Source of the DNA: Pseudomonas sp. MM223
GTDB taxonomy: Bacteria > Pseudomonadota > Gammaproteobacteria > Pseudomonadales > Pseudomonadaceae
Direction of reading: 5' to 3'
DNA: 64,000 bases
NCBI GenBank assembly: GCA_947090765.1
Contig: OX352322.1
Location: forward strand, 3,703,501-3,767,500
Under the pieces are notes generated by a model that saw only the letters and a program-made list of their open reading frames with translations, did no database searches and was not told the DNA's origin. Within the stretch, counting starts at the first letter, position 1, and each line of letters starts with the position of its first letter. The translations under genes and the position numbers were made by a program. Of this stretch, positions 15,940 through 32,788 are shown piece by piece.

Positions 15940-16962
15940 TCAGTGTTGCGCCATGTCCAGCACTACCCGCCCACCGCAAGGGCACTGGTCCATGTAACGA
16001 TGTGCCTCTACCACCTGCTCGAACGGGTACACCTTGATGATCTGCGGTGTCAGCAACTGGTCGGCGGTGAACTGGTTGATATCACGCAAGGCTCGCTGCA
16101 GCGCCACCTGGTCCTGGCTGATGCCAAGTTCCGGCTTGCCGGTGAAGTTACCGATGCAGTGCACATAGAACTGGATGTTCTTCTGGAAAGCTGCACAGGC
16201 CGGGAACGGCGTCTGGTTACCGCCCTGCAGGCCATACAGGACCAGGCTGCCACGCGGCGCCAGCACATCGCCCAACAGCGACATCTGCGGCCCGCCCATG
16301 CCATCAAGGACCATGTCCACGCCGCGGCCATCGGTGTACTTGCCAACCTGCAGCAGCAGGTCCTGCTCTTCGGTAACAATCACCTTGTCGGCACCCAGGC
16401 CCAGCAGGTACTCACGCTGCTCCGCTTCTTTGGTAGCAGCAAACACCTTCAGCCCCAAGGCCTTGCCCAACTGCACGAACGCGGGGCCGGCACAATGGCT
16501 GGCATCGGTCACCAGCGCGGTCTGCCCGGCCTTGGCCCGAGCCAGGTCAACGTAGGCAAAATAGGCGATCAGCAACGGCGTGTAGTGCACGCTGGCCTCG
16601 ATCGGGGTGAGCACATCCGGGTAGCGGGTAATGGCCGTACGCGGCAGCACGATGACATCACCGTACACCGGGTGATCGTTGGCACTGGTGGCCGGGAAGC
16701 TGGCTACCCGGTCGCCCACCGAAATGTCTTCGACCCCGTCACCAACCGCAGTCACCACCCCGGCCATTTCGTGGCCGATGCCCGCCGGCAGGCGTGCCTG
16801 GGACGGCGCCAGGTTCTGGCGCCAAAGCACGTCATACCAGCTGACGCCCACCGCCTCGACGCGGATCTGTACCTCGTCGCTAGCGGGTGACGGTTCGGCC
16901 TGCTCCTCGCAACGGAGCACATCGGCAGCGCCGAACTTGTGGAAACGGATCATGCGGGACAT
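15940..16962 (-). CDS. Zinc-type alcohol dehydrogenase-like / quinone oxidoreductase (MDR superfamily)
   Basis: 340 residues with a GroES-like N-terminal domain and a Rossmann domain (ALVTDASHCAGPAFVQLGKALG). Hallmarks include AGIGHEMAGVVTAVGDGV and VGDRVASFP. The catalytic and structural zinc cysteines of true ADHs are not evident, so it belongs with NADPH quinone reductase-like MDR enzymes. It is divergent from a LysR gene at 17169, the likely regulator, and ends in a clear terminator. Physiological substrate unknown; small electrophilic carbonyls or quinones are typical of the family. Confidence 0.88.
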   Translation of the reverse strand: MSRMIRFHKFGAADVLRCEEQAEPSPASDEVQIRVEAVGVSWYDVLWRQNLAPSQARLPAGIGHEMAGVVTAVGDGVEDISVGDRVASFPATSANDHPVYGDVIVLPRTAITRYPDVLTPIEASVHYTPLLIAYFAYVDLARAKAGQTALVTDASHCAGPAFVQLGKALGLKVFAATKEAEQREYLLGLGADKVIVTEEQDLLLQVGKYTDGRGVDMVLDGMGGPQMSLLGDVLAPRGSLVLYGLQGGNQTPFPACAAFQKNIQFYVHCIGNFTGKPELGISQDQVALQRALRDINQFTADQLLTPQIIKVYPFEQVVEAHRYMDQCPCGGRVVLDMAQH

Positions 16963-17021
16963 CGCATACCTCGCCTTTGTGAACCTCTAATTACCACTGA
17001 CTTTATCCGGGCTTTGGCGGT

Positions 17022-17042
17022 TAGACCATCAGCGGTCATTAA
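17022..17042. promoter_or_regulatory. Candidate LysR box between MDR oxidoreductase and LysR gene
   Basis: TAGACC-ATCAGC-GGTCATTA is an imperfect dyad with GACC/GGTC arms. It lies between the divergent genes, 60 bases from the oxidoreductase start and about 127 bases from the LysR start. Position and symmetry fit an LTTR recognition site. Confidence 0.4.
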
Positions 17043-17168
17043 TAGTCGACATGCTTGTCATCGATTGGGCACCTGACTTTCCCTGCAATTGGTCCCCCTA
17101 AACCCGTGCAGGGTAACAGCCTTTGGCCGTAAGATTCACCCCTGCCCCACTTTAGGCGAAGCGCACCG

Positions 17169-18083
17169 ATGAATCGAAACGACCTGCGTCGCGTAGACCT
17201 CAACCTGCTGATCGTGTTCGAAACGCTGATGCATGAACGCAGTGTGACCCGTGCCGCAGAAAAACTGTTCCTCGGCCAACCAGCCATCAGCGCGGCCCTG
17301 TCGCGCCTGCGCAACCTGTTCGACGACCCGCTGTTCGTGCGCACCGGCCGCAGCATGGAACCCTCGGCGCGGGCCCACGAGATATTCGCCCTGCTGTCCC
17401 CGGCGCTGGATTCGATTTCCACCGCGGTCAGCCGCGCTGCCGAGTTCGACCCCGCCACCAGCAACGCGGTATTTCGCATCGGCCTGTCGGACGATGCCGA
17501 ATTTGCCCTGTTGCCACAGCTGCTCAAGCGCATCCGCGCCGAAGCACCGGGCATCGTGCTGGTGGTGCGGCGGGTCAACTACCTGCTGATGCCGACGTTG
17601 CTGGCCTCGGGCGAGATTTCGGTGGGGGTCAGCTACACCAGCGAACTGCCGGCCAACGCCAAACGCAAGGTGTTGCGCCGCAGCATGCCGAAACTGCTGC
17701 GCGCCGACAGCGTGCCCGGCGGTATCACCCTGGACGACTTCTGCGCACGGCCGCATGCGCTGGTGTCGTTTGCCGGTGACCTGTCCGGGTTCATCGACGA
17801 AGCCCTGGAAGAACTTGGCCGCAAGCGCCACGTGGTGCTGGCGGTGCCGCAGTTCAACGGGCTCGGGAGCTTGCTGGCAGGCACGGATATCGTGGCCACT
17901 GTGCCGGACTACACCGCCGATGTGCTGACGGCGGCGGGCGGCTTGCGGGCCGAGGACCTGCCGATACCCGTGCGCAGCTTCGAACTGCACATGGCCTGGC
18001 GCGGCGCGCAGGACAACGACCCGGCGGAGCGGTGGTTGCGGTCGCGGATACAGATGTTCTTCGGTGACCCTGACAGCCTTTGA
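17169..18083 (+). CDS. LysR family transcriptional regulator (NodD/NahR-like group)
   Basis: 304 residues starting MNRNDLRRVDLNLLIVFETL, the typical N-terminus of this LTTR group. It continues with the HTH (LFLGQPAISAALSRLRNLF) and DDPLFVRTGRSMEPSARA. The effector domain follows from about residue 90 (NAVFRIGLSDDAEFALLP). It is divergent from the MDR oxidoreductase, the probable target. It ends 25 bases before a convergent hypothetical gene. Confidence 0.92.
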   Translation: MNRNDLRRVDLNLLIVFETLMHERSVTRAAEKLFLGQPAISAALSRLRNLFDDPLFVRTGRSMEPSARAHEIFALLSPALDSISTAVSRAAEFDPATSNAVFRIGLSDDAEFALLPQLLKRIRAEAPGIVLVVRRVNYLLMPTLLASGEISVGVSYTSELPANAKRKVLRRSMPKLLRADSVPGGITLDDFCARPHALVSFAGDLSGFIDEALEELGRKRHVVLAVPQFNGLGSLLAGTDIVATVPDYTADVLTAAGGLRAEDLPIPVRSFELHMAWRGAQDNDPAERWLRSRIQMFFGDPDSL

Positions 18084-18593: not shown

Positions 18594-18800
18594 GTCGGTC
18601 GCCATAGGTAGCAAGAGGTCGATAGCGGAAGTTGAACCAAAACGTTACCCCTTGTCATTAAGTTACGAGGCATGAGGGGTGTATCGAGACATTTCAAAAA
18701 TACTGTAATCCAACGTGCTGAACTTTCAGACAGCAATACTGGAAATTACGCGCAAGTAACAATACCCTGCCCAGTACACAACCAAGACAACAAGTTGATC

Positions 18801-20633
18801 ATGTCAGGGAATACACCGTTTCAGACACCGCGCTGGATGCGTGACCTCGTCCGTTTCCTGCCACTTAAAAGCCAATTCGTCCTGTCGGGAAACATCCGCG
18901 ACCTCCAGGCCTGCGAGGTCGTCCCTGGCACGGTCACGGCCCAGAGCTTCAACCAGACCCTGTGCGACGCCTTGCTCAACGCCGGCTATGGCCACGTTCT
19001 GGCTTGGGACCCAGTGGCTGGTTTTCGTGTACTTGGCAAACCCGGCAACGACCCGGCACCGGGCCATGCCCTGCTTCAGGAACTCGGCCTGACCCCGGTG
19101 AACGCTGCCGCGAATGCCGGCGTCGACCTGCTGGCCGCCACCATGCAGCGGCTGTTGGTCCGCACCGATACGCCGATCGCCCTGATCATCGACTTCGCCT
19201 CGCGCCTGGCGGTTCGTAACGATTCACTGAGCGCGGCCGAGCACCAGCTGTTCACTCAGGCACTGGTTCATGCTCACCAGGCGCGCAGCCGGCCAGAGCC
19301 ACAAACTCGAAAACCATTCTTCAACACGCTGCTATGGTTGGTGGAAAAAGAAGGCGACCTGCCGGACTGGCTGTTGGTCGACAATCCACGTATCCGCCAC
19401 ATTCCGGTCTCAAGACCCGACCAGCTGGCCCGCCGAGCCTTGGCTCCGGCCTTGCTCAAGGGGCTCGCCGGTAGCCAGGAAGCAAGTCAGGACGCCCTCG
19501 CCCAGGCCGCAGACGCTTTCGTGCAGAACACTGAGGGGCTGTTGCTGCTTGACCTCAGCGCCATTGCGCAACTCGCACGGGTCGAGGGTGTGGCCATGGT
19601 GCAGATCGCCGATGCCGTGCGCCGGTATAAAGTGGGGGTCACCGAAGACCCCTGGCTGCGCATTGACCGCCAGCGCATCCGCCAGGGCGAGGAGTTGGTG
19701 CACCAGCGGGTGAAAGGCCAGGACCACGCCGTGACCCACATGCTCGATATCGTCAAGCGAGCGATGACTGGCGTCGGTGCCAGCCGCAAGGGTAACCGCC
19801 CGCGTGGCGTGGCCTTCCTGGCCGGCCCCACCGGGGTGGGCAAGACCGAGCTAGCCAAAACCATCACCAGCCTGTTGTTCGGCGACGAAAGCGCTTATAT
19901 CCGTTTCGACATGTCGGAGTTCAGTGCCGAGCATGCCGACCAACGCCTGATTGGTGCACCTCCTGGCTATGTCGGCTACGACGTCGGCGGCGAACTGACC
20001 AATGCGATTCGCGAGAAACCCTTCAGCGTGGTGCTGTTCGACGAAATTGAAAAAGCCCACCCACGCATCCTCGACAAATTCCTGCAGATTCTTGACGACG
20101 GCGTGCTGACCTCCGGCCGCGGTGACCGGGTGTACTTTTCCGAGGCGCTGATCGTGTTCACCTCCAACCTGGGCATCTACCGCCTGGGCGATAACGGCGA
20201 GCGCGTTGCCAACGTGCTGCCCGGTGAACCCTACGAGCAGGTTCGGGAGAAAGTCCACAGTGAGATAGACCGGCACTTCAAGCTGGTGCTCAATCGCCCG
20301 GAAATCCTCAACCGTATCGGCGAGAACGTCATCGTTTTCGACTTCATTCGTGAAGAGGTCGGCCAACAGATCTTTGAACAGATGGTCGATGCCACCTTCA
20401 AAGATCTGCAACAGCAGGAACTGCACGTGGCCATCGTCCCTGAGGCACGCCAGGCGTTGCACACCCTGTGCCTGCGCGATCTGTACAACGGCGGCCGTGG
20501 TATCCGCAACCAGCTCGAGGCACATCTGCTCAACCCGCTAGCGCGGGCCTTGTTCGACCAGGACGCTCAACCTGGCGAGCATTTTGCCATCAGCCGACTG
20601 GAGGTCGGCGGATTGACCCTGGAGCGTCGCTGA
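18801..20633 (+). CDS. ClpB-like AAA+ ATPase, first gene of a four-gene system
   Basis: 610 residues from ATG 18801; in-frame codons upstream to 18672 look non-coding. An N-terminal region of about 300 residues (starting MSGNTPFQTPRWMRDLVRFL) is not a recognised domain, though VLSGNIRDLQ and PIALIIDFAS hint at a degenerate first ATPase fold. The C-terminal half is a typical Hsp100 D2-type AAA+ module: Walker A G342-PTGVGK-T349, Walker B VVLFDEIEKAHP (D414/E415), the pore-loop-like GAPPGYVGYDVGG, sensor FTSNLG and the small-domain GGRGIRNQLEAHLLNPLA. The next gene starts 2 bases after the stop. Likely role: substrate remodelling inside a multi-protein complex; target unknown. Confidence 0.88.
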   Translation: MSGNTPFQTPRWMRDLVRFLPLKSQFVLSGNIRDLQACEVVPGTVTAQSFNQTLCDALLNAGYGHVLAWDPVAGFRVLGKPGNDPAPGHALLQELGLTPVNAAANAGVDLLAATMQRLLVRTDTPIALIIDFASRLAVRNDSLSAAEHQLFTQALVHAHQARSRPEPQTRKPFFNTLLWLVEKEGDLPDWLLVDNPRIRHIPVSRPDQLARRALAPALLKGLAGSQEASQDALAQAADAFVQNTEGLLLLDLSAIAQLARVEGVAMVQIADAVRRYKVGVTEDPWLRIDRQRIRQGEELVHQRVKGQDHAVTHMLDIVKRAMTGVGASRKGNRPRGVAFLAGPTGVGKTELAKTITSLLFGDESAYIRFDMSEFSAEHADQRLIGAPPGYVGYDVGGELTNAIREKPFSVVLFDEIEKAHPRILDKFLQILDDGVLTSGRGDRVYFSEALIVFTSNLGIYRLGDNGERVANVLPGEPYEQVREKVHSEIDRHFKLVLNRPEILNRIGENVIVFDFIREEVGQQIFEQMVDATFKDLQQQELHVAIVPEARQALHTLCLRDLYNGGRGIRNQLEAHLLNPLARALFDQDAQPGEHFAISRLEVGGLTLERR

Positions 20634-20635
20634 CC

Positions 20636-21271
20636 ATGGAACTGAGCCTGTCCCGTGTGCACTTCCCGGTCACAACCCTGGGTCCCGGTCGTCGTCTGGG
20701 CATCTGGTTTCAAGGCTGCAGCATCCGTTGCCCTGGGTGTATTTCCGCCGACACCTGGGGGCCAGGCAAGCGCCGCGTGGGCATAGCACAGCTGTTGGCG
20801 CAACTGACACCCTGGTTGGCCGAAGCTGAAGGCATCACCCTCTCGGGCGGCGAACCCTTCGACCAGTTCCCTGCCCTGCTCGCCCTGCTCCAAGGGCTGC
20901 GCCAGTCGAGCCCGTTGGACATTTTGGTGTATAGCGGCTACTCGCTTGAACACCTGCAACCCCAACTGCAACAAGCCGAAGGCCTGATAGATGCGTTGAT
21001 CAGCGACCCCTTCGACCAGCGCAGCGAACAATCCCTAGCACTGCGTGGCAGCGACAATCAGCGCCTGAACCTGTTGACCTCGCTTGGCCGTGAACGCCTG
21101 GCCAGCTACCAACGCCCCATGCAACCCGCCGACCAGGCCCTTGACCTCATGTTCGACGAGAACGGCAGTGTGTGGATGGCGGGGATCCCTCGGCGTGACG
21201 ACGTACTGCGTCTGCGCGACCTTTTGAACGCGCAAGGCCACCAGGTCCGCACCAGCGCGCACCGCCACTGA
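20636..21271 (+). CDS. 4Fe-4S radical SAM protein (NrdG/PflA activase-like)
   Basis: 211 residues. C28-SIR-C32-PG-C35 is the CxxxCxxC cluster motif of radical SAM proteins, preceded by LGPGRRLGIWFQGC, typical of small activating enzymes. SGGEPF (70-75) is the SAM-binding motif. Length fits an activase without an extra domain. No glycyl-radical partner enzyme is nearby; the gene is embedded between a ClpB-like ATPase (2 bases upstream) and a giant helicase (14 bases downstream). It may therefore modify a protein or nucleotide within this system. That role is inferred from operon structure alone. Confidence 0.88.
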   Translation: MELSLSRVHFPVTTLGPGRRLGIWFQGCSIRCPGCISADTWGPGKRRVGIAQLLAQLTPWLAEAEGITLSGGEPFDQFPALLALLQGLRQSSPLDILVYSGYSLEHLQPQLQQAEGLIDALISDPFDQRSEQSLALRGSDNQRLNLLTSLGRERLASYQRPMQPADQALDLMFDENGSVWMAGIPRRDDVLRLRDLLNAQGHQVRTSAHRH

Positions 21272-21285
21272 CCGGAATCTGCCCA

Positions 21286-24200
21286 ATGATTCGCTATTGC
21301 CCAAACTGCAACACCGCACGCCCGGTACAGGAAATGTTCTGCGAAGGCACCGTCGACCAGCACCCGTGCAACTGGGACCTGGCCGGCGAGCCTATTCACG
21401 CAGACGGCTGGCGCCCGCAAGTCATCCAGACCGCGGAAAAACTGCCTCCAACAGATACAACCGCGGTCGCGCACGGCATCGTCTGTGAAAACGGGCATGC
21501 CATGGCCCCCGGCGATCTGATGTGCCTGCAGTGCGACGCCTCACCTGCCCAGTCTGCAACCAACGAAGTCCCAGTTGCTACGGTCGACGATGCACCCGGG
21601 GCCACCGAAACATTGATCGAAGGATGGTCACTGATCCGCCAGATCAGCAATACCGACGGCGTCCGCGAGCGCTACCTTGCACTGCACCATGAAACCGCTC
21701 GCCAAGCGGTACTCACCCTTTACCGACCAGGCGCAGAGCCGGACCCTGCGGTCTATGACGTCATCCGCCGCCTACCCCGCCAGCATGTGCCCGAAATTAT
21801 CGCCACCGGCCGCTGGGATGGCCGAGCATTCGAAGTGGTAGAGGAACTGACCGGCGGCAGCCTGGCCGACCTCGGCGGCGTGATCCGTGAAGCCCACAAC
21901 GTGCGCCATGTGCTGCGCGAGCTGGGCCAAGCGCTGCACGCATTTAACGAGGCCGGTTTGCGCCACCGGGACCTGCGCCCGGCTAGCCTGTTGGTACGCG
22001 CCCATGAGCCACTGGACCTGGTGATCAGCGGCTTTGGCTCGGCGCGTCTGTCAGAGTTCGACCTGGACATCGTGTCGCCTCTGGAGACCAGCCGCTACAT
22101 GGCCCCTGAAGCCATCGCCGGAGGTGTGGCGGCCGCCTCGGACTGGTGGAGCCTAGGCATGATCCTGCTCGAGCAACTGACCGGTGGGACCTGCTTCGAA
22201 GGCATCCAGGCCAATGCCTTCCTCATCCATGTACTAGCCAACGGAGTGCCGATTCCCGAAGACCTCGACCCACAGCTGAACCTGCTGTTGCGCGGTCTGC
22301 TGGCACGCGACCGGCACCAGCGCTGGCAATGGACCGAGGTCGAGGCCTGGCTCGACGGCCGCCCAGTGCAAGCCCCTGCTTCAGTTCTCGCCGAACACGA
22401 CGACGGCGAAGGTGCCACCTTGCAACTGGGCGAGGCTCGTTATCACAAGCCGGCAGTGTTCGCCCTTGCCGCCGCGCACACCGAGCACTGGCAGCAGGCA
22501 CTCGACCACCTGCTGCGCGGCGTCATCGTCACCTGGGCCGAGCAACTTGGTCTTTCCCCCTCATTGCTCGCCGGCCTACGCCAAGTGGTGCAGCATGACG
22601 GGCTGGAGGACGATTTCCGCTTGATGCTCGCGTTGAAACTGCTCAACCCGGAAATCCCGCTGATCCACCGCGGTGATATCGTCACCCCTGGCTGGTTGCT
22701 GGACCATCCGCTGCAAGGCTACCAGCTGGTCAGTGGCTCGGTGCCCGACCTGCTGGAGCAGCTGCAGACCGACAACTGGCTTTCTCGGCTCAAACTTCGC
22801 GCCGAGCAGGTTCGCCAGCGCGCCCTGCATCAGCAGATCGAACTGGTCGAGGAGACCTTGCGGGTGTACCTGCTGTCGACCTCGCGGGCAAAGCTGACCA
22901 GCGAATGGCAGGCACGCCAACGCTTGCTGCCGGATACCGAGCACCCCGGCCTGCAAGCATTGGCGGAACGACGGATCATCGCCGAAGAAGACCTGATCGT
23001 GCTGCTCAGCGCATCGATCGGCCAATTCCGTTCGGTGGATGCGATCATCCAGGAAGCGGCTGAGCTGGCCAGTAGCGTCGAGGTCGACTGGTTCGACAGC
23101 GAAGCTGCCACAGCACTGCTGCAGCACCCGCGCCATGAGCTTTACCAAAGCGTCGATGAGCGCATACACGGGTTTGCCCGCTGCGGCGTCGCTACAGTCG
23201 ATGCGTGGGCCGAGCAGTTCCGCCTGGAACGGCGCATACCCCTGCCCCAGGCCTTGGTGCTGCTGGCCATCCCGGCAAACCAGTGGCTTGAGCCGCAAAA
23301 GCAGCAGTATGTGTCGCAGATCCTCGAGTTCTTCGAGAAGAAGGTGGTGACCGCAGTGATGCGCGGGCCGTTGGTACGAATGAGCATCGGCAAGACCACC
23401 GCCCGGGTCGATCTCAACGAACTGCACAGTGAGCGCCACCCGGCCGCCGCCCTGCTCGACCACCTGCTGCTGCGCAACGAACGGGCTGTGAACCTGGACC
23501 CGGAGTGCTTCCAGGCCCTGCCACAGATTGCCTCGCGCCTTCACGCGCTGCACCGGCAGAGCGCCTTGTACAAACGCGACACCGGCATCGATGGGCTTTA
23601 CCTGGGCTTCCCGTTCCTGCTCAGTCGCGACCCACGCGGCACCACCCGCACACGCATCATTCCGTTGTTGCTGTGGCCGGTAAAGCTGCTGCTGGAGGTG
23701 GGCAGCCACGGCCTTGCGGCCCTGGCCTTCGACAGCGAACGCGAAGAGGTGCGCCTGAACCCCGCGCTGGAAAGCGTACTTGGCGCCGAAACCTGCAAGC
23801 GCTGGCGCAAGACGGCCGACGAGTTGCTTGGCCGCTCCTCGATCCGCGCCAGCGATGTGATGGATGCATTCGGCATGCTTGCCACCGCGCGCTCGCGCAG
23901 CATCGTCGGGCTACCGCCCAGCAACGTGGAAGTCGTGCCTTACCAGGACGAACTGGCCTGTAGCGGCGTGTTGTTCCACGTTACCTTCATGGGCCAGGCC
24001 ATCGGTGAGGACCTGCGCCAACTGAAGTCGCTTTCGCCTGCCGGCAGCGGGCTCGAGACCGCATTGCGGCTCAGGGTCGACGAGGAAGCGGAGGCCGTGG
24101 CACCGCCGGCTGAACTACACCGCTATTTTACCGTCGCCAGCGACCCCTCGCAGGAGGCAGCCGTGCTGCAAGCGCGCCAAGGCCCGGGCCTACTGGTCGA

Positions 24201-25572
24201 GGGGCCACCGGGCACCGGCAAGAGCCAAACCATCGTCAACATGGTCGCCGATGCCATCGGCCGCCAACGCAGCCTGCTCATTGTCTGCCAGAAGCACGCG
24301 GCGCTGGAGGTGGTGTACAAGCGCCTTGTAGCCGAGGGGCTGGGCCAACGTATCGTCATGCTCAACGACGTCAACCGCGACCGCGAACCGATCATCCGCA
24401 GTATTCGCGAACAGCTGGAAACCTTGTTCATCGGTGGGGACGAAGGCCAGGGCCTGTTCCGCCAGCGCGAACAAGTGGCGGCGCGTATCGAGACACTCGA
24501 AGGTGAGCTGGACCGCTTCCATCTGAGCCTGCATCGCCCGGACCCGGCCACCGGCTTGAGCTACCGGCGCCTGCTGGGCGAGCTGATCGCCCTCGAAGAC
24601 GGGCCGGCACCGCTCGAATTCCCGGCGCTGCGCCAGCGCCTGGCCGCGCTTGACGTTGCCAGCCTGACTCGCTTGGAAGAAAACTGCGCGCCGCTGGTAC
24701 GCCTGTGGCTGCCTGCCCGCTATGAAGGCAGCCCTCTGGCGCAGTTGCAGCCGTTCGCCACGGACCACTCCACCCTGCAGGCCTTTACCGACAACCTGCT
24801 CGCCTTCAGCCAGGCTGAGCTGCAGCGCCAAGAGACCCTGCAAGCACACCCGGCCAGCTTCGAGATCGACGACCCTGCACCGTACCGGGCATGGATGGCC
24901 ACCCATGTGTCGGCCTTGCTCGATCTTAGCCAGGAACAGCGGCTGCGCCTGGCCCGCTGGCTACCACTGTTCCGCAGCAAGGACGGCGAGCAGCTGCCGC
25001 GTGGCGAATCGATGCTGAACGAGCTGCGGCAACTGCAGCAGCAGCTCGAGCGGCTGCCTGAAAGCGATTACCTGCTAACGCTGTCGCCGGCCTTGAGCCT
25101 GCTCGACAGCAAGCTGCTGCGCGGCCTGGAAAGCGATTGCGCCAAGCTCTTGGCCGCTCGCTCCTGGCTGGCACGCATGAACCCGTTGCACCTGATCAGG
25201 CGCAAACGCCTTCACGACTTCCTCGAAGCTCAGGGTGACGCCCGTAAGGATCAAGCCCTGCAAGGGCTACGCGCGGCCATCGACTTGGAACAGCAATGGC
25301 GCCCCTTGCGCGCCGAACTTGCTGCACTTCACCAGGCCCTGGCCATGGATAGCGTCGCCCCGCAGGCAGGCCTGGAGCTCGGCGGCCTTGGTCAAGTCCG
25401 ACATCCGCCAGCTCGTCGAGATTCAGGCTTTGGCACAAGCACTGGCGCAGTCGCCCCGCGCACGCCAGACAGACGACGCCGTGCTTACCGGCGACAAACA
25501 GCACCTGGAAGCGCTGCTGGGCGATCTGGACGCCTCGCTGCTGCGCCAAGGGGTACGCCAATCCAGCCTTGA
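21286..25572 (+). CDS. Zinc-ribbon/pseudokinase/SF1 helicase protein, N-terminal part (frameshifted)
   Basis: Residues 1-90 hold two zinc-binding clusters (C5, C8, C19, C28, then C67, C80, C83). Residues 113-360 are a protein-kinase-like domain with HRDL (227-230), YMAPEAIAGG and SDWWSLGMILLEQL. However, the DFG motif reads G249-F-G, the catalytic-loop Asn is Ser234 and no beta3 Lys is evident, so it is likely a pseudokinase. A long central region is unassigned. The helicase begins near residue 940 with Walker A G973-PPGTGK-S980, the UPF1/DNA2 type. True coding is lost near 25380, where the frame changes; the last roughly 60 residues up to 25572 are out of frame. The remainder continues at 25382-27592. 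Confidence 0.85.
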   Translation: MIRYCPNCNTARPVQEMFCEGTVDQHPCNWDLAGEPIHADGWRPQVIQTAEKLPPTDTTAVAHGIVCENGHAMAPGDLMCLQCDASPAQSATNEVPVATVDDAPGATETLIEGWSLIRQISNTDGVRERYLALHHETARQAVLTLYRPGAEPDPAVYDVIRRLPRQHVPEIIATGRWDGRAFEVVEELTGGSLADLGGVIREAHNVRHVLRELGQALHAFNEAGLRHRDLRPASLLVRAHEPLDLVISGFGSARLSEFDLDIVSPLETSRYMAPEAIAGGVAAASDWWSLGMILLEQLTGGTCFEGIQANAFLIHVLANGVPIPEDLDPQLNLLLRGLLARDRHQRWQWTEVEAWLDGRPVQAPASVLAEHDDGEGATLQLGEARYHKPAVFALAAAHTEHWQQALDHLLRGVIVTWAEQLGLSPSLLAGLRQVVQHDGLEDDFRLMLALKLLNPEIPLIHRGDIVTPGWLLDHPLQGYQLVSGSVPDLLEQLQTDNWLSRLKLRAEQVRQRALHQQIELVEETLRVYLLSTSRAKLTSEWQARQRLLPDTEHPGLQALAERRIIAEEDLIVLLSASIGQFRSVDAIIQEAAELASSVEVDWFDSEAATALLQHPRHELYQSVDERIHGFARCGVATVDAWAEQFRLERRIPLPQALVLLAIPANQWLEPQKQQYVSQILEFFEKKVVTAVMRGPLVRMSIGKTTARVDLNELHSERHPAAALLDHLLLRNERAVNLDPECFQALPQIASRLHALHRQSALYKRDTGIDGLYLGFPFLLSRDPRGTTRTRIIPLLLWPVKLLLEVGSHGLAALAFDSEREEVRLNPALESVLGAETCKRWRKTADELLGRSSIRASDVMDAFGMLATARSRSIVGLPPSNVEVVPYQDELACSGVLFHVTFMGQAIGEDLRQLKSLSPAGSGLETALRLRVDEEAEAVAPPAELHRYFTVASDPSQEAAVLQARQGPGLLVEGPPGTGKSQTIVNMVADAIGRQRSLLIVCQKHAALEVVYKRLVAEGLGQRIVMLNDVNRDREPIIRSIREQLETLFIGGDEGQGLFRQREQVAARIETLEGELDRFHLSLHRPDPATGLSYRRLLGELIALEDGPAPLEFPALRQRLAALDVASLTRLEENCAPLVRLWLPARYEGSPLAQLQPFATDHSTLQAFTDNLLAFSQAELQRQETLQAHPASFEIDDPAPYRAWMATHVSALLDLSQEQRLRLARWLPLFRSKDGEQLPRGESMLNELRQLQQQLERLPESDYLLTLSPALSLLDSKLLRGLESDCAKLLAARSWLARMNPLHLIRRKRLHDFLEAQGDARKDQALQGLRAAIDLEQQWRPLRAELAALHQALAMDSVAPQAGLELGGLGQVRHPPARRDSGFGTSTGAVAPRTPDRRRRAYRRQTAPGSAAGRSGRLAAAPRGTPIQP

Positions 25573-27592
25573 CCTGCTCCAGCTGCTTGACGACTGGCTC
25601 GGCAACGAATTGGCTCAACAGCTGCGACATGCCGTAGAACACAACCTTACCAACGAACTGGCCCTCGGCCGTTTGCACGACGCCTTACCGCATCTGGCGG
25701 CCTATCAAGGCTTTCGCGCCCGCGCCGGGCAGCTCGCAGAGGCTGACCTGGCCCTGCTGGCCCTGCTGCGCCAGCGCCAGGCGCAACTCGACGCGCTGCC
25801 CGCAGAACAGCTCGATGCCGCCGTGCGCCGCTTGCTCAACCGCGAAGCGCGGCTGGGCTGGAAGCACCGCATCGAACAGGCCAACCCGGAGCTGCTGTTC
25901 AGCCAGGAAGAGACCCAGGCCAAGGTCGTCGGCCTGGCGCAAGCCGATACGCGGATGCGTGAGCTCAACCGTCAATTGCTAGCCACAGGCATCGACCCGA
26001 TGCGCCTGGGCAGCCGCAAGCAGTGGGAAGATGTGACGCGGCTGACTGGCAAGCGCTCGCGCCGGCTACGTGAATTCCTCGAGCTGGGTGGTCCGCTGGG
26101 GCTCATGACATTGCGCCCGGTATGGCTGATGAACCCGGACGTGGCCAGCCGGGTGCTGCCACTGAAAAACGGCCTGTTCGACACGGTAATCTACGACGAG
26201 GCATCGCAGATGCCGGTGGAGTTTGCCCTGCCGACTCTGTTCCGCGGCCAGGTTACCGTGGTCAGCGGCGACGAGAAGCAGATGCCACCGACCGCGTTTT
26301 TCTCCAGCCGGGTAGAAAGCGATGAGGCCGAACTGTTCGATGGCGACGAACCGGACGAGGACGCCGACGAAGAACAACGCGAGGCCTTCGAGGACACCTG
26401 GAACCGCCGCGAGATCAAAGACTGCCCGGACCTGCTGCAACTTGCACGCAATGCCCTGCCCAGCACCACCCTGCAGATCCACTACCGTTCGGCCTACCGC
26501 GAACTGATTGGTTTCTCCAATGCCTCGTTCTACGGTAACCGCCTGAATGTGCCAGTGCGCCACCCTCAAGCGAGCATTCGTCAGCTCAAGCCGCTGGAAC
26601 TGATCCAGGTCGAGGGCCTGTACCAGAACCAGAGTAACGCTGCCGAAACCGAGCGTGTCGTGGAGTATCTGGAGGCGCTTTGGCAACTCCCTTACGCGCA
26701 GCGTCCGTCGGTGGGCGTGGTGACCTTCAACCGCAAGCAAGCCGAGCTGATCGAGGAGCATCTGGAAACCTACGCCAGCGAGAACGAAGCTTTCCGCGCC
26801 GCATACGCCCAGGAGCGCGAACGCAGCGAGGATGGCGAAGACATGTCGGTATTCGTCAAGAACGTCGAGAACGTGCAAGGTGATGAGCGCGACGTGATCG
26901 TGTTTTCCTCCACCTTCGGCCGCAACAGCCAGGGCACCTTCCGCCGTAACTTCGGGGTGCTCGGCCAGACCGGTGGCGAACGTCGCCTGAACGTGGCGGT
27001 GACCCGTGCTCGGCGCAAGGTGGTAATGATCACCTCAATGCCCATCGCCGACATTTCGGACATGCTCAACACCCAACGCGCCCCCGCCAGCCCACGCGAC
27101 TACCTGCAGGGCTATCTGGAATACGCACGCGCGCTGTGTGCCGGCGAATTCGACTACAGCGCCAAGCTACTGGGCCGCCTGCAAACCGACCGCAGCACAC
27201 AGGTGCATGGGCACGACCAGGGTCGCGACGGCTTCGCCAGAATCGTTGGCGCATTTATCGCGTCCCTGGGCTGGAGTGCCGCCCCGGCCAGCGAAGGCGA
27301 CGCGTTCGGCCTGGACTTCGCCATCGCAAACCCGGAGACCGGCACCTATGCCATCGGTATTGAATGCGACGCGCCCAGTCACGCCCTGCTCGAACGGGCC
27401 CGGGCCCGGGAAATCTGGCGTCCCTCGGTACTGCGTCGGGCGATTCCGCAGATCCACCGCGTCTCGTCCCAGGCCTGGTACCACGACGGCGACAATGAGC
27501 GAGCCCGCTTGCGCACGGCCATAGTAGGCGCAATGCAAGCCGAGCAGCCAGCGGTCGCATCCAATGATAATGATAAGGAGACCTGCCAATGA
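25382..27592 (+). CDS. SF1 helicase C-terminal part plus nuclease domain (continuation after frameshift)
   Basis: This reading frame continues the protein begun at 21286, one base out of register; the frame is open from 25235 but looks genuine only from about 25382. It supplies the remaining helicase motifs: motif II VIYDEASQMP, motif III GDEKQMPPT, motif V NVQGDERDVIVFS and motif VI RRLNVAVTRARRK. The tail (about 27220-27560) has FGLDFAI and YAIGIECDAPSH, the D...ExD pattern of Vsr-like PD-(D/E)xK restriction-type nucleases often fused to such helicases. With the first part, the full protein would be about 2100 residues. Its stop overlaps the next start (ATGA). Confidence 0.85.
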   Translation, partial: AALVKSDIRQLVEIQALAQALAQSPRARQTDDAVLTGDKQHLEALLGDLDASLLRQGVRQSSLDLLQLLDDWLGNELAQQLRHAVEHNLTNELALGRLHDALPHLAAYQGFRARAGQLAEADLALLALLRQRQAQLDALPAEQLDAAVRRLLNREARLGWKHRIEQANPELLFSQEETQAKVVGLAQADTRMRELNRQLLATGIDPMRLGSRKQWEDVTRLTGKRSRRLREFLELGGPLGLMTLRPVWLMNPDVASRVLPLKNGLFDTVIYDEASQMPVEFALPTLFRGQVTVVSGDEKQMPPTAFFSSRVESDEAELFDGDEPDEDADEEQREAFEDTWNRREIKDCPDLLQLARNALPSTTLQIHYRSAYRELIGFSNASFYGNRLNVPVRHPQASIRQLKPLELIQVEGLYQNQSNAAETERVVEYLEALWQLPYAQRPSVGVVTFNRKQAELIEEHLETYASENEAFRAAYAQERERSEDGEDMSVFVKNVENVQGDERDVIVFSSTFGRNSQGTFRRNFGVLGQTGGERRLNVAVTRARRKVVMITSMPIADISDMLNTQRAPASPRDYLQGYLEYARALCAGEFDYSAKLLGRLQTDRSTQVHGHDQGRDGFARIVGAFIASLGWSAAPASEGDAFGLDFAIANPETGTYAIGIECDAPSHALLERARAREIWRPSVLRRAIPQIHRVSSQAWYHDGDNERARLRTAIVGAMQAEQPAVASNDNDKETCQ

Positions 27593-28935
27593 GTGGCCCT
27601 AAGGTGGTGCGCATCGTCACCCGTGAAGAAATCATCGCCATTTGCGAAGGCCATCTGCGCCAACTTGATCAGGCCGTGGCACGTTGGGAAGCCCAGGCCG
27701 CAAAGCTCGGCCAGCTTAACGAGCAAGAGCGCGCGGCCATGCGGGCACGGCAAGCACGGTTGCGAGCTTTGCTCACTGAGGACCAGCTCCGGGAGTTGCA
27801 GAAAGCCGTCCCCATTGAGATCGAGCACCTGCGGCGCGACCAGCTGGCTCGTGAGGAACGCGCTATTCGGCAAGCGACCGAGCAGCGTCAGCATCAACGC
27901 CGCATGCAGGAAAATGCAGCGCTTCTGCTCAAGGCCCTTGCCAGCCGCAGCGACAACGCCCCGCAGGTGGTGCAAGCCCTGACACAACTGGCCGATGGCG
28001 CCCAACTGGAGAATGCTGAACAGTTGCTTGCTCAAGGCTTCGCCCAATTGAGCAGCAGCAACGAAACGCAAAGCCTGGACGAGCAACAACGCGCGCTGGC
28101 TCAGCGGCTCAAAGACGACGCCCCCACGCCCGACCTCAACACGTGGCTAGCCGAGCGAGCACAAACGACCCGCGACCCACGCCTGCTGCAGATCGATCGG
28201 CATATCGCCGAACTGCACCTGTTGCAAGGTGCAGCCTTTGCGGCGCGCTTCGTGCAAGCCTTGGCCCGGGCAGAAGCCCAGCCCCAATCGCAACAACGCA
28301 ACTTGCTGCTCGACAGCTTGATGATCGAGCTGGCCCACAATAGTCGCGACTTCCAGCTCAGTCGCGATTCGCTCGCCAAGCTCCACCACCTTGCAAACGA
28401 AGTGCGAACCCATTCGGAGGCTGGGAACGAGGCATTGCTCGAGCAGGTCAGCCAATGTACGGCCAGCACCTCGCCCCCCATGTTGAGCGAGCCGACGAAA
28501 CGCTGCGAAGCAGTTCTTGCCGCCCATGTGCAAGCGCAAGCCGCCCTCGCTCGTCGCCAAGCCATGCTCCAGGGACTGGCCGAACTTGGCTACGAGGTGC
28601 GCGAAGGCATGACCACCGCCTGGGCCGACTCGGGCAAGATTGTGCTGCGCAAGTCGGCCACGCCAGGGTATGGCGTGGAACTGGGCGGCAAAGCCGAGAA
28701 CGGTCGCCTACAGGTGCGTGCGGTGGCATTGAGCCCTGATCGCGACACGCAACGCGACAAGGATATCGAGACGATCTGGTGCAACGAGTTCGGGCGTCTG
28801 CAGACGATGCTTCAGGAGGATGGAAGCGAGCTGCTGATCGAGAGAGCAATGGGGATAGGAGAGACGCCACTCAAGGAAGTGCTTGCCGCTGAAGAAGAAG
28901 TGATAGCTGCTGCCGCACAGCTACGTACGAAGTAA
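27589..28935 (+). CDS. Coiled-coil protein of unknown function, last gene of the four-gene system
   Basis: 448 residues. Residues 1-130 are strongly helical and charged, predicted coiled coil (for example KLGQLNEQERAAMRARQARL). The middle is Gln/Ala-rich and helical. The C-terminal 100 residues look globular (YEVREGMTTAWADSGKIVLR, then GYGVELGGKAENGRLQVRAV). No known family recognised, and no signal peptide or membrane span. It starts inside the stop codon of the giant helicase gene, so it is translationally coupled and probably part of the same complex, perhaps as an adaptor or scaffold. Confidence 0.8.
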   Translation: MSGPKVVRIVTREEIIAICEGHLRQLDQAVARWEAQAAKLGQLNEQERAAMRARQARLRALLTEDQLRELQKAVPIEIEHLRRDQLAREERAIRQATEQRQHQRRMQENAALLLKALASRSDNAPQVVQALTQLADGAQLENAEQLLAQGFAQLSSSNETQSLDEQQRALAQRLKDDAPTPDLNTWLAERAQTTRDPRLLQIDRHIAELHLLQGAAFAARFVQALARAEAQPQSQQRNLLLDSLMIELAHNSRDFQLSRDSLAKLHHLANEVRTHSEAGNEALLEQVSQCTASTSPPMLSEPTKRCEAVLAAHVQAQAALARRQAMLQGLAELGYEVREGMTTAWADSGKIVLRKSATPGYGVELGGKAENGRLQVRAVALSPDRDTQRDKDIETIWCNEFGRLQTMLQEDGSELLIERAMGIGETPLKEVLAAEEEVIAAAAQLRTK

Positions 28936-29216
28936 TTTGGCGGAGCCTACACCGTAAGCGAACGGCCAACGTCGCATTACCGTAGGGAAGTCGATCGGGA
29001 CAAGGCCAAATATGGTCCGCAATGAATCGATAGCTGCCGTTCGTGACAAATTGTCCTGATTCGGCGCCCCGCCTTGCTTTCCGGCATACCGCCACACAGA
29101 TGCACTGAAGTCCAATGTGCACCACCTCGACAGCTGTCAGAAGTCGCCATTCTCGATCGCGCATCCTGCTGAGGGTACCGCGGATATTTCTAGGGGGGGC
29201 GGACGCATAGCCTTGA
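28936..29216. other. Non-coding boundary region right of the system
   Basis: No gene supported. A leftward ORF at 28921-29115 (64 codons, overlapping the coiled-coil gene end) has some protein-like composition but no recognised homology and no ribosome site. No T-rich terminator was evident after the operon. The region abuts a peptidase pseudogene. Confidence 0.4.
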
Positions 29217-29683
29217 TCACGAGGCCAGCCAGACTTGCGTCAGTCGCACCCAGAAGCTCGCGCCGACCGCGAGAATGTCATCGTTGAATTCGTAGTTCGG
29301 TTTATACACCATGCACCCTCCCCCAACTGCCGATGCCATTGCCGATATAGGCATAGCAGCCGGGACTTTTTCGACCATGTAGGCAAAGTCCTCGCTGCCC
29401 ATGACAGGCCTGCATTGCGCGTCTACATGCCCATCGCCCAGCATTTCCCGTGCGATACCGATGGCGAATTCGTTCACCCTTTGATCATTGACCAATGCCG
29501 GGTAACCGCGCTCATAGCGGATTTCGGCATTTAGCCCGAAGCTTTCCGCCTAACCGACCGCCAGCGCCCGGATGCGTTGCTCGACCCGTTGCCGCACCTT
29601 GGCATTCAGCGTGCGCACGGAAAGCCTGAGTTCGACAGCATCTGAAAAGAGCAGGACACTGTTGCCGTTAGCGCCCACTCAAG
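29217..29683 (-). pseudogene. M20 family peptidase/amidohydrolase, C-terminal remnant
   Basis: The last 92 residues are intact and carry the C-terminal hallmarks of hippurate-hydrolase-like M20 enzymes (PVMGSEDFAYMVEKVP, then YKPNYEFNDDILAVGASFWV). Upstream in the same frame, VELRLSVRTLNAKVRQRVEQ is also M20-like but is interrupted by an in-frame TAG (near 29551). The N-terminal two thirds, with the metal ligands, are missing. The remnant marks the right edge of the AAA+/helicase island. Confidence 0.8.
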
Positions 29684-29718
29684 CCTCATCACCCCAAGCT
29701 GCAACCGAAACCCAGAAC

Positions 29719-31014
29719 TCAGTGCGAGGCCACTTCCACCGGCGGGAACTTGTATCCGCCACCTTGTACCGCTTTGCTTGGGCCGTACAACCTCAAGACG
29801 ATGTAGGCATCCTTTTCCGGAATTGGCAGGTAATTAGGGTTGCTCTCGTCACCCTTGGCGCTCAGCTCAATGGTGTATTCACCATTGGCATCCGGTTTAA
29901 GGGTGCGGTCACCGCGGCTGTGGCGGTTGATGGCGTTGTGGGCCATCAGGCGGTTGTCTGAGGCGTAGACGGTGAAAGACCAGAACTGGCTGACTTCAGG
30001 CGCCTTGAAGTGCATGACGTAAGACTTGCCATTGGCACCATTGATCGGTTTGCCATCGGCAGCGGTCTCGGTGCGCAGGTAGATACTTTCATCCGGTGGC
30101 AGCCCCCACTGGCCGATGTAGGTGCCCTCGGCAAACAGGTCACGGGGCCCGTCACCCAACTGCTCGCGGGTGCCCAGCAGCTTGCCGGCGTCGGTCATCT
30201 TCGGTGCGAGTTCCTTGATGTGCTTCATGCCCAGCTCTTCACCCTTCTTCGCGGCCGTCAGTTGCTCCTTGGTGAAGTTTTCCTTGCAGGGCTCGACGCC
30301 GACTGACTTGTACTGATCGAGCCATTTCTTGTCAGCCTGGCCCATGTTGCCGTCGCACAGTACGAAGTTCACCCGTTGCAGCCAATTGGTCCTGGCCGGG
30401 TCGGGGTACGTGCGCTGCTTGGCTTTCGGGCCGGGTTCGCCCAGGTAGGCTGAAAGCGTGCGGACGTTCCAGTCGTCCATGTAGGCAAGCGCCTTCTTCT
30501 GGTCTTCAGGCCCGGTGGACATGATCCTGCCCATCAGCTTCACCAGGTTGGATTCGACACGGATCACTTCGGTGACGCTGTCTGGTACCGTGCCCTTCCA
30601 CTGTGGCGAGGCGAACATGAAGTGGCCGCCCTTGGTGTCACGTGTGCGTGACCCGATCATCGACGTTGTGTAATGGCCCATGTCCATGGTGTGCAGGATC
30701 CAGTAGCGACCTTTTTCCATTTCTGGAACGCTGACGATTACCGGTTCTGCGGCAATATCCAGCCAGCCCATCAGGTGTAGCGTGTCGTTGTTGATGGTGG
30801 GATGGTCGACATAGGTGTCATCGGCCAGATGGCGGATGTTCTGGAAGCGATTGAGCGGCGTGTTGGTCTTGACTGCCGTCTCATAGAAGAATTTGTAAGC
30901 CTCATCCATCGAGTAACCATAGATGTAGGCATCTTCCGCCAGCTTGTCGGGGATCTGTGCGAAGGCCGGCACGGCAAGCGAAAGCAGGGCTGCTCCAAGC
31001 ACCATGGGTTTCAT
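29719..31014 (-). CDS. DUF1254/DUF1214 domain protein, exported
   Basis: 431 residues from ATG 31014, which has AAGGAG ideally spaced; an extension to 31050 is unsupported. A signal peptide is visible (MKPMVLGAALLSLAVPAFAQ). The N-terminal DUF1254 region has AEDAYIYGYSMDEAYKFFYE and the C-terminal DUF1214 region has FWSFTVYASDNRLMAHNAIN. Proteins of this family are periplasmic or surface-exposed and of unsettled function. It lies 62 bases downstream of a second DUF1254 gene, with nearly the same ribosome-site context. Confidence 0.88.
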   Translation of the reverse strand: MKPMVLGAALLSLAVPAFAQIPDKLAEDAYIYGYSMDEAYKFFYETAVKTNTPLNRFQNIRHLADDTYVDHPTINNDTLHLMGWLDIAAEPVIVSVPEMEKGRYWILHTMDMGHYTTSMIGSRTRDTKGGHFMFASPQWKGTVPDSVTEVIRVESNLVKLMGRIMSTGPEDQKKALAYMDDWNVRTLSAYLGEPGPKAKQRTYPDPARTNWLQRVNFVLCDGNMGQADKKWLDQYKSVGVEPCKENFTKEQLTAAKKGEELGMKHIKELAPKMTDAGKLLGTREQLGDGPRDLFAEGTYIGQWGLPPDESIYLRTETAADGKPINGANGKSYVMHFKAPEVSQFWSFTVYASDNRLMAHNAINRHSRGDRTLKPDANGEYTIELSAKGDESNPNYLPIPEKDAYIVLRLYGPSKAVQGGGYKFPPVEVASH

Positions 31015-31076
31015 CAAGTCTCCTTGGGCCAGCGGGCCAGCCCCTGTCATTTGGTTTCGAAGTTTGCAGACAGTGC

Positions 31077-32567
31077 TCAGGGGGCTACCCGCTCGAAGTC
31101 TGGCAACTTGAAGGTTTTGTTGTTGAATGCTTCGGTGGGGCCGTAAAAGCGCATGGCCGGCAAGGGGCGTTTGCCCGAGGTGGGAATCCAGTTGGCTTCT
31201 TCGCCTTGCGGGGCCGTCGGCCCGACATAGATCGTCACGCCGCCATCGGCATTCTTCTTCATCTTGTCGACGTCGAACGACGACAGCGTGGTGCGGTTGC
31301 TGTCGCTGTAGATGAACGAGAAAGTGGCGCGGTCATAGACCGTCAACGCCCAGAACTGCTTGACCGGCATGTCCTTGGGTACATCGAGCTTGTAGAGCTG
31401 GCCGGCTTCCAGCGGTTTGCCGTCCTTGTCAGCCATCGCCATCTGGTACGACGTCGCCGGCGAGGCGCTGAGGACTTTTGGCATGTAGGTGCACCAGAAG
31501 TACTCCGCTGCCCGCTCGAGCAGGTCGATGCGATCTTCGTAGATGAACGTGAACGTGTGGTTGGCATCAGGCTGCAACAGCGAGACATAGTGCCGGTCCG
31601 GCCAGTACACGCGCTTGGACATCTCGGTGTCGAACCATTGCTGAAGGAAGAACCAGGCATCGATCGCGGCCTGGTGCATGGCCTTTTTGGCGGTTTCGTC
31701 CGGTGCGAAGGGTTTGCCTTTGACGATGCCCAGGGACGACAGCATGCCCATCATGACCTTGTCGTGTTCGCGCACTGGCTCCACGCTCATGATCGCGTGC
31801 ATGTCTTCGAAGTGACGTTCGTCATAGAACGGCAGCGTCGGGTAGCGCTCATGGGCAGGGTCGATGAACTTTTGCTGCGGTGGCGACTTGGCTTCAGCCA
31901 GGTAGTACATGCGCAGACGCTTGGCGTATTCGTAGGCGTCCTTGGCTGTCTTGCCAGCGGGCGGCACCGAGCGAAACGCCAGAGCGATACGGTAGTTGGG
32001 CGAGGCCACGTGGATATAGCCCTTGGGTACTTCACCTTGGTAATCAGGTGCAGTGAACAGGTACTTGCCGCCTTTGCCTTTGTCGAGCCCTGCCGGGCCT
32101 ACATCGGCGATGGTGAGTTGCCAGGCATCCACCACCTGGCCATATAGGCTGCCGTCCGCAGAGGCTGCCGGGATTTCCAGCACCACTGGGCCTTTGCGCA
32201 GGTCCGTATAGGCCGCAATGTAAGGCGTGGTGCTGTTGGCAGTAATGGCTTCAAGCTGTGGGGTAGCCGTTGCCGAATAGGCAATGATGTCGTTGTCCTT
32301 GTAGCCGAGGTCCTTCTCCGCAGCACGGCGGAAGGAGTAGATGGCAATCGCCGGCATATTCCAGAGGATGGCTTCGAACGCACGCTGGTACTTGATCTGG
32401 TAATCAAAGTCCTTGACCGAAGGGCTGGCTCCCTCTGGGGGTTGTCCTCCCAAGGGCTCGGTAGCTGCCTGCACGGTAACGGCAGTACAAGCGGCAATCG
32501 CCATGGCTAGCAGGCGAGGCTTCAAACAGATGACCATCCGACTCATCAACCCTTCTCTGGCATCCAT
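31077..32567 (-). CDS. DUF1254/DUF1214 domain protein, exported (paralogue)
   Basis: 496 residues from ATG 32567, preceded by AAGGAGACTTTC. The signal peptide lies around MVICLKPRLLAMAIAACTAV, after a short extension (MDAREGLMSR); a start at the MSR methionine is possible. DUF1254 is seen in RAFEAILWNMPAIAIYSFRR and DUF1214 in QFWALTVYDRATFSFIYSDS. It is longer than its neighbour at 29719-31014 and divergent in sequence, so an ancient duplicate rather than a recent copy. It is divergent from the AspT-type exchanger gene, with a 221-base shared upstream region. Confidence 0.88.
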   Translation of the reverse strand: MDAREGLMSRMVICLKPRLLAMAIAACTAVTVQAATEPLGGQPPEGASPSVKDFDYQIKYQRAFEAILWNMPAIAIYSFRRAAEKDLGYKDNDIIAYSATATPQLEAITANSTTPYIAAYTDLRKGPVVLEIPAASADGSLYGQVVDAWQLTIADVGPAGLDKGKGGKYLFTAPDYQGEVPKGYIHVASPNYRIALAFRSVPPAGKTAKDAYEYAKRLRMYYLAEAKSPPQQKFIDPAHERYPTLPFYDERHFEDMHAIMSVEPVREHDKVMMGMLSSLGIVKGKPFAPDETAKKAMHQAAIDAWFFLQQWFDTEMSKRVYWPDRHYVSLLQPDANHTFTFIYEDRIDLLERAAEYFWCTYMPKVLSASPATSYQMAMADKDGKPLEAGQLYKLDVPKDMPVKQFWALTVYDRATFSFIYSDSNRTTLSSFDVDKMKKNADGGVTIYVGPTAPQGEEANWIPTSGKRPLPAMRFYGPTEAFNNKTFKLPDFERVAP

Positions 32568-32788
32568 GAAAGTCTCCTTGGGCAAGAAACACATTCGGCA
32601 GCACGTGGGCCCACTGCCATGCAACATGCCACTTCACCAAACTTGACGCAGTGTAGATGAGGTTTCTGTACAGCTTGGGCGAACGCCAACCATGCACCAT
32701 GCGCATTTGCCGACATGCATTGCTCCCCCAACGATTGCACGCATACTCATACAGGTCTGCCGGACTGTCGTTTAGAGAGGATGCGAAC

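Follow-up and report, generated by a model that had tools for sequence, protein, structure and literature searches.

What does a row of genes for an Hsp100-type AAA+ ATPase, a radical S-adenosylmethionine (SAM) protein, a pseudokinase-helicase-nuclease and a coiled-coil protein do for the bacterium that carries it? We address this question for such a row, genes A to D, within a 64,000-nucleotide stretch of Pseudomonas sp. MM223 (contig OX352322.1, positions 3,703,501 to 3,767,500; hereafter 'the window'), whose source assembly comprises 2 contigs and 6.73 Mb at 99.93% completeness. Judging from sequence comparisons, we put the probability at roughly 0.5 that the operon encodes one multi-protein system destroying or blocking foreign nucleic acid, in which a module of the Hsp100 and radical SAM proteins would license a helicase-nuclease effector. 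Foreign nucleic acid is the suggested target because of the relatives of the operon proteins (ProA, Hhe, Mokosh and Dodola), the sporadic and horizontal spread of the operon, and its context.

Four genes in a conserved order

A preliminary description of this DNA had proposed a single operon of four tightly packed genes, and their coordinates agree with it (Table 1): all lie on the plus strand, with gaps of 2 bases between A and B and 14 bases between B and C, and with a 4-base overlap of C and D.

Table 1 Genes of the operon and of its immediate surroundings in the window (aa, amino acids).
Feature	Position	Strand	Description
Gene A	18801..20633	+	610-aa Hsp100-type AAA+ protein
Gene B	20636..21271	+	211-aa NrdG/activase-like radical SAM protein, CxxxCxxC and GGEP
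Gene C, first frame	21286..25572	+	Cysteine (zinc-ribbon-like) motifs, DLHK-type pseudokinase, DUF4011, first RecA half of superfamily 1 (SF1) helicase
Gene C, second frame	25235..27592	+	Remaining linker, second RecA half of helicase, MTES_1575/Vsr-like nuclease
Gene D	27589..28935	+	448-aa coiled-coil protein
Alcohol dehydrogenase and LysR pair	15940..18083	- and +	Core-genome neighbors; synteny with relatives stops at the LysR stop
Two DUF1254/DUF1214 genes	29719..32627	-	Downstream of the operon, adjacent to each other

Scanning one genome per species with gene D returned 124 confirmed relatives, the best 80 of which (79 loci) were analyzed; as D served to find these loci, most copies of A, B or C lacking D would have been missed. 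The order A-B-C-D on one strand recurred in 76 of the 79 loci, bearing out the proposal of one conserved system. The other three loci (L052, L066 and L072) lie at contig ends, and only there did D occur without its three partners. All four genes are near full length in 70 of the 76 ordered loci, and the exact 4-base C/D overlap is found in 60. Of the six ordered loci that fall short of full length, L020 begins at a contig start, as L089 does in part, L061, L075, L083 and L089 have a broken C, and L079 has a truncated reading of D. In comparison with the nearest relative, ratios of nonsynonymous to synonymous substitution rates (dN/dS) were 0.076 for A, 0.096 for B, 0.147 and 0.12 for the halves of C and 0.206 for D, indicating purifying selection. 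Given the ordered loci, the recurring overlap and dN/dS values of 0.08-0.21 in every part, the four-gene arrangement is not due to chance.

The operon occurs in Pseudomonas, Xanthomonadaceae, Burkholderiales, Rhizobiales, Orbaceae, Legionella, Chlamydiae and an acidobacterial metagenome-assembled genome. Within the genus sample, 8 of 149 genomes had a D match (seven full length, the window's included, and one fragment), as did 4 of 299 genomes in the phylum sample (two of them strong, again including the window's). Among 72,556 plasmid records, D was found in 11, ten of which cover at least 80% of D and eight of which are in Rhizobium. In IMG/VR, one contig holds D, and another holds A at 66% over residues 1-601. 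A quickly built tree of 68 C proteins, with several forks open and the broken C of the window excluded, places two Stenotrophomonas copies within the Pseudomonas clade and two others with Lysobacteraceae; likewise, P. piscis joins the nearest relatives of the window (L012 and L013), and strains labeled P. protegens and P. chlororaphis fall in another clade. What the phylogeny shows is an operon that has spread horizontally.

Hidden Markov model (HMM) matches and motifs agree with the earlier assignments of A as an Hsp100 AAA+ protein and of B as a CxxxCxxC radical SAM protein. Gene A matches ClpB-type AAA_2 and D2-small domains and has the D1 plus D2 AAA+ layout of the Hsp100/Clp fold: its D1-like module (about residues 1-280) is without a P-loop, and Walker A, Walker B, sensor 1 and the GYVGY pore loop are all intact in its conserved, ClpB-like D2 site. 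The disaggregase ClpB is nearest to A, which nonetheless scored 269.1 bits against the ClpB equivalog model TIGR03346, below the cut-off of 1232.1. An alternative, longer open reading frame (ORF) begins at 18672; we favor the start at 18801 because A measures 604-626 aa in 74 of 76 relatives. Gene B is Fer4_12/NrdG-like by HMM, and both CxxxCxxC and GGEP are present in 75 of 75 aligned sequences. Despite its CxxxCxxC motif, B scored 77.6 bits against the NrdG model TIGR02491, short of the cut-off of 126.1. No glycyl-radical enzyme family was among the hits of the operon proteins, the corresponding motif not having been searched systematically.

For the giant protein C, HMM searches returned Pkinase, DUF4011, AAA_11, AAA_12 and MTES_1575, the last of which we take to resemble the Vsr nuclease; the helicase is UPF1/DNA2-like. 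The kinase-like, helicase and nuclease parts described earlier are thereby recovered, but in the window they do not lie in one frame. Zinc ribbons had also been proposed for C; seven conserved cysteines speak for them, whereas no HMM matched. The kinase-like domain has the hallmarks of the DLHK pseudokinases, with the beta3 lysine lost, an HRDLR catalytic loop that includes R231, and GFG in place of DFG. Conservation across 72 copies is high at T144 (71), G249 (70), D229 (68) and R231 (67); the loop asparagine of the DLHK description (PMC12599244) is not general in C, being found at column 234 in 11 of the 72. Gene D has an N-terminal strand, a long helical middle and a small C-terminal alpha+beta domain, with an invariant MSGPK start and Cys398, and matched no family in Pfam, PADLOC or NCBIfam.

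The first frame of C parts from intact relatives at about residue 1366-1368 (~25.38 kb), its later codons being out of frame, whereas no stop interrupts the second frame; the change may be a real indel or a sequencing error. A single-frame C of at least 2,072 aa is present in 72 of the 77 relatives with a C hit. Frame breaks were also seen in L061 (residues 1169-1174), Rhizobium pRL1 (L185; 1289-1296), L083 (925) and L089 (365-375), along with an apparent in-frame stop in L075. Three of the breaks in C fall within a poorly conserved linker, roughly residues 1150-1500. Since the breaks lie at different residues, C has no common frame-break site, and programmed frameshifting at one shared site was rejected. 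The pRL1 copy (L185:9109-15004) has its C annotated as two genes, and gene A is missing from its incomplete gene table. Presumably, the locus tags PA2725-PA2728 denote the operon in P. aeruginosa, PA2727 and PA2728 belonging to gene C. Variation has been listed here as well: one ORF given as PA2727 plus PA2728 with a substitution, together with an indel in PA2727, in ST406 (PMC4918941), and an insertion in PA2727 (PMC3697988).

A sister system with relatives of A and B

A sister system, newly found here, combines A-like and B-like proteins with a helicase resembling that of Mokosh, a PIN protein and a different coiled coil. The Pseudogulbenkiania genome that holds locus L070 carries, on a second contig (L127, 511-10456), a row of five genes encoding an SF1 helicase (MkoA, 333 bits), a PIN-domain protein, a coiled-coil-like protein (D'), an A relative (A') and a B relative (B'). 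A' matches the A protein of L070 at 34% over its full length, and B' is at 33%; A and A' are homologous over their whole length (hhalign E 4e-109). Ten plasmid records were found, and the five regions opened (L179, L180, L181, L182 and L183; from Moellerella, Polaromonas, Acinetobacter, Leisingera and Photobacterium) all have the identical five-gene order, making six of six with L127. One sister-system plasmid is named pNDM1_010055. Some sister loci adjoin restriction-modification (RM), ArdA, integrase or antitoxin genes, and relatives of A' at 60% identity or more occur in Aeromonas, Vibrio, Yersinia and other genera. Homology of the C-terminal domains of D and D', with a cysteine in common, was considered but not supported: the layouts agree by eye, yet the local score of 15.6 compares with up to 17.8 in 40 column-shuffled controls.

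Searching a class sample of 369 genomes with the N-terminal half of A' returned five, namely the two D-holding genomes of the phylum sample and three more distant A-like proteins. The Hsp100-like protein thus represents an older family that serves more than one setting. One distant A-like protein (L191:6376-9446; 623 aa) directly follows a 400-aa glutamine-rich protein, with no radical SAM protein or helicase noticed alongside.

Our main reason for regarding A and B as a module is that both are kept while the helicase, nuclease and coiled coil differ. More tentatively, and with considerable doubt, we propose that a shared licensing module (an Hsp100 ring of one dead and one live AAA+ domain plus an NrdG-like radical SAM protein) might drive at least two helicase-nuclease-coiled-coil systems, DUF4011/Vsr and Mokosh-like/PIN. 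These would represent a new class of immunity, in which protein radical chemistry arms or resets the effector.

Genomic context and competing readings

The working model infers the role against invaders, every contact between the proteins, what B acts on and what A remodels. In it, C would be both sensor and effector. Its zinc-ribbon-like motifs and the pseudokinase with its degenerate ATP site would restrain the helicase-nuclease until a signal linked to an invader arrives, whereupon the UPF1/DNA2-like helicase would load and translocate and the Vsr-like nuclease would cut DNA or RNA. D may act as a coiled-coil scaffold joining C to A. With its dead D1 and live D2, A could remodel the C-D complex by releasing, resetting or unfolding a bound component, while B might activate one of the proteins in the complex through radical SAM chemistry, in analogy with glycyl-radical activases.

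The preliminary description had named presence in hotspots beside other defense genes as support for its proposal. One locus fits, that of P. aeruginosa PA7: there, about 19.6 kb separate D from pheS, pheT, an IHF-type protein and MerR on the opposite side, the arrangement expected of the right flank of core defense hotspot 1 (cDHS1), which faces pheT-ihfA-merR across the hotspot and which we found in PA7 only. The DUF4011 gene serves as right-flank marker of cDHS1 and is treated as a core boundary rather than an immune system (PMC10250203). Inside the PA7 hotspot (L119:9605-19034) lie a HATPase-domain protein with a neighbor and an 1830-aa protein that matches TrwB weakly. Elsewhere, however, defense genes adjoin the operon at few loci and are not a rule. 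Up to seven ORFs upstream of 18 loci (114 ORFs) gave, among the best 25 of 59 PADLOC families, HamA, HamB, LmuA, LmuB, a SIR2 model, an RtcR-type regulator and PDC-M23B. BBP2017 has the sole full-length HamB among the 18 genomes, 4 kb upstream of A, with G178 having partial matches elsewhere; Mesorhizobium has the sole SIR2-model match among them, 6 kb upstream. In P. piscis (L114 and L196), two ORFs lie between LysR and the operon, and from their size and sequence they look like the Lamassu pair LmuA/LmuB. As a control, 18 stretches chosen arbitrarily in these genomes were scanned; their 116 ORFs matched 11 families, the best at 4.8e-62 (ShosA model) and including single weak LmuA and LmuC matches, with no clear system. 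The upstream defense genes are suggestive without being significant.

Several observations weigh against a defense role. The strongest is that the operon is core in P. aeruginosa, unlike most defense genes: its DUF4011 gene and merR are reported as flanks in every isolate (PMC10250203). The preliminary description had held core conservation in all close relatives to be incompatible with its proposal; sporadic presence in the genus agrees with that proposal, and the state in P. aeruginosa does not. Moreover, recognizable upstream defense genes amount to at least 2 of 18 loci (3 by our reading) versus none clear in the control, a difference not significant alone. The first three ORFs downstream of 46 loci (138 ORFs; PADLOC at 1e-15) are mostly metabolic, and the best 25 of 57 families there hold only Wadjet JetA/B/D and type II RM/methylase models, one member each. 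Neither D nor A' was found in phage records, D and D' have no significant homology (hhalign probability <1%), nothing was found that links B to a substrate, and the literature searched holds no phage or plasmid challenge data for the operon.

Part of this evidence would suit a system serving the cell's own stress response or repair, in which C processes damaged or stalled DNA or RNA, A removes stuck protein complexes and B detects or exploits anoxic or redox conditions, hotspot adjacency being incidental. UPF1/DNA2-like helicases do process damaged or stalled DNA or RNA. The core status in P. aeruginosa (PMC10250203), the metabolic neighbors, the purifying selection, the closeness of A to ClpB and the lack of D in phage records all point this way. 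Yet we consider such a role unlikely, as the operon is otherwise sporadic in genus and phylum and has spread horizontally, some copies are broken or on plasmids, the sister system is plasmid-borne, and relatives of C and A are known from anti-phage systems. Were plasmids or conjugating DNA the target instead of phages, a helicase-nuclease effector would be apt, and the sister system resides on conjugative plasmids, where plasmid-plasmid competition could be its role; but nothing distinguishes the two kinds of invader and both systems themselves occur on plasmids, which leaves this quite improbable. The window copy, finally, could be a dead remnant, the frame change in C having ended its function in Pseudomonas sp. 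MM223, a reading compatible with the others. We deem this possible, at somewhat less than even odds: purifying selection acts on both halves (dN/dS 0.147 and 0.12), the second frame is open throughout, most relatives have an intact C, and a recent break, an indel introduced by sequencing or two halves working as separate proteins are all conceivable.

If the operon does defend against foreign nucleic acid, this would explain the boundary operon of P. aeruginosa cDHS1, give the DLHK family a role and make the use of radical SAM protein chemistry in bacterial immunity testable. As the sister system suggests the Hsp100 and radical SAM pair to be an exchangeable module, one experiment on the pair would inform both systems.

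With respect to the chromosomal site, the upstream LysR gene is core (a copy at 84% or more in 36 of 36 same-genus genomes), and in 20 of 20 relatives neither the operon genes nor the downstream DUF1254 genes were found beside it at 60% identity or more; nucleotide synteny halts at the LysR stop in the 4 of these 20 that were read. In strain S31 (LysR 98%), the operon is 84 kb off. BBP2017 holds the nearest operon (A 96%), but on a different contig from LysR, and its counterpart of window 34.8-36.7 kb sits 5.1 kb from LysR, the operon being absent from the interval. In other species the operon sits 9 kb (P. piscis), 22 kb (ICMP 561) and 221 kb (PA7) from LysR, so that it may alternatively have long had its place in this region and since been rearranged and lost. 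Within the window, 3-4 kb upstream of the operon, a DUF772-type transposase domain (14394-14759) is followed by a second ORF (to 15373), the two probably forming one insertion sequence. No clear gene occupies the segment after D (28936-29700), though by eye 29.2-29.7 kb resembles a decayed minus-strand gene.

Comparison with known systems

The preliminary description had called the system a candidate undescribed one, which goes too far: DLHK is the name given to the pseudokinase family in a 2025 review, where the operon of P. aeruginosa is mentioned with no function assigned (PMC12599244), and the DUF4011 gene is in use as a cDHS1 flank (PMC10250203). The DLHK operon (UniProt Q9I0B5) likewise comprises an ATPase, an organic radical activating enzyme, a pseudokinase-helicase and an unannotated gene, and its AVLT, HRDLRPAS, GFG and R231 features match gene C. 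Helicase/DNA2 domains are named in that account, but its section on the operon is silent on DUF4011, a Vsr-like nuclease, A being an Hsp100 protein, the four genes being conserved across phyla, cDHS1 and the sister system (PMC12599244). A DUF4011 helicase of P. syringae, shorter in one strain, has been noted (PMC6589727). We found no functional study of the operon in the literature searched.

The likeness to conflict systems noted earlier stands, in that the kinase-like, helicase and nuclease parts resemble anti-phage proteins. PADLOC, which the same description had recommended consulting, and NCBIfam gave partial matches to ProA, Hhe, Mokosh and Dodola, but no named system. Hhe and ProA share with C an SF1 helicase and a nuclease-bearing C-terminal part; scanned apart, the C pieces reached 155.3 and, for the second frame, 345.2 bits against ProA (NF058533, cut-off 1500), and 83.7 and 227.7 bits (the latter again the second frame) against Hhe (NF042953, cut-off 2000). 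To our knowledge, neither has Hsp100, radical SAM or coiled-coil partners. Mokosh combines an MkoA/MkoC helicase with a PLD-type nuclease. The helicase and kinase-like regions of C partly match MkoA and MkoC, but the operon differs in its Hsp100 and radical SAM partners, and as no operon protein matched a PLD family, the nuclease being MTES_1575, the operon falls outside it. Dodola consists of DolA plus DolB; A matches the ClpB-like DolB at 66 bits but, unlike DolB, has a full D1-D2 layout, and with no PADLOC match to DolA in the five ORFs, the operon is not a Dodola system either.

CoCoNuT type III-B has a UPF1-like helicase fused to a Vsr-like nuclease, with coiled-coil and AAA+ partners (PMC11090510); its AAA+ protein is a McrB-type GTPase, as opposed to the Hsp100 plus radical SAM proteins here, and no McrB/McrC family was among the hits listed for the five ORFs (for one ORF, the best 25 of 27 PADLOC families), which sets the operon apart from CoCoNuT. 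With TerY-P it shares a kinase-like domain and a zinc ribbon in a helicase-nuclease context (PMC11090510), but no operon protein hit VWA (TerY) or PP2C and the kinase residues are lost, so that it is not assigned to TerY-P. By kind, the operon belongs with the multi-gene helicase-nuclease conflict systems, and the module shared with the sister system could make it more than that.

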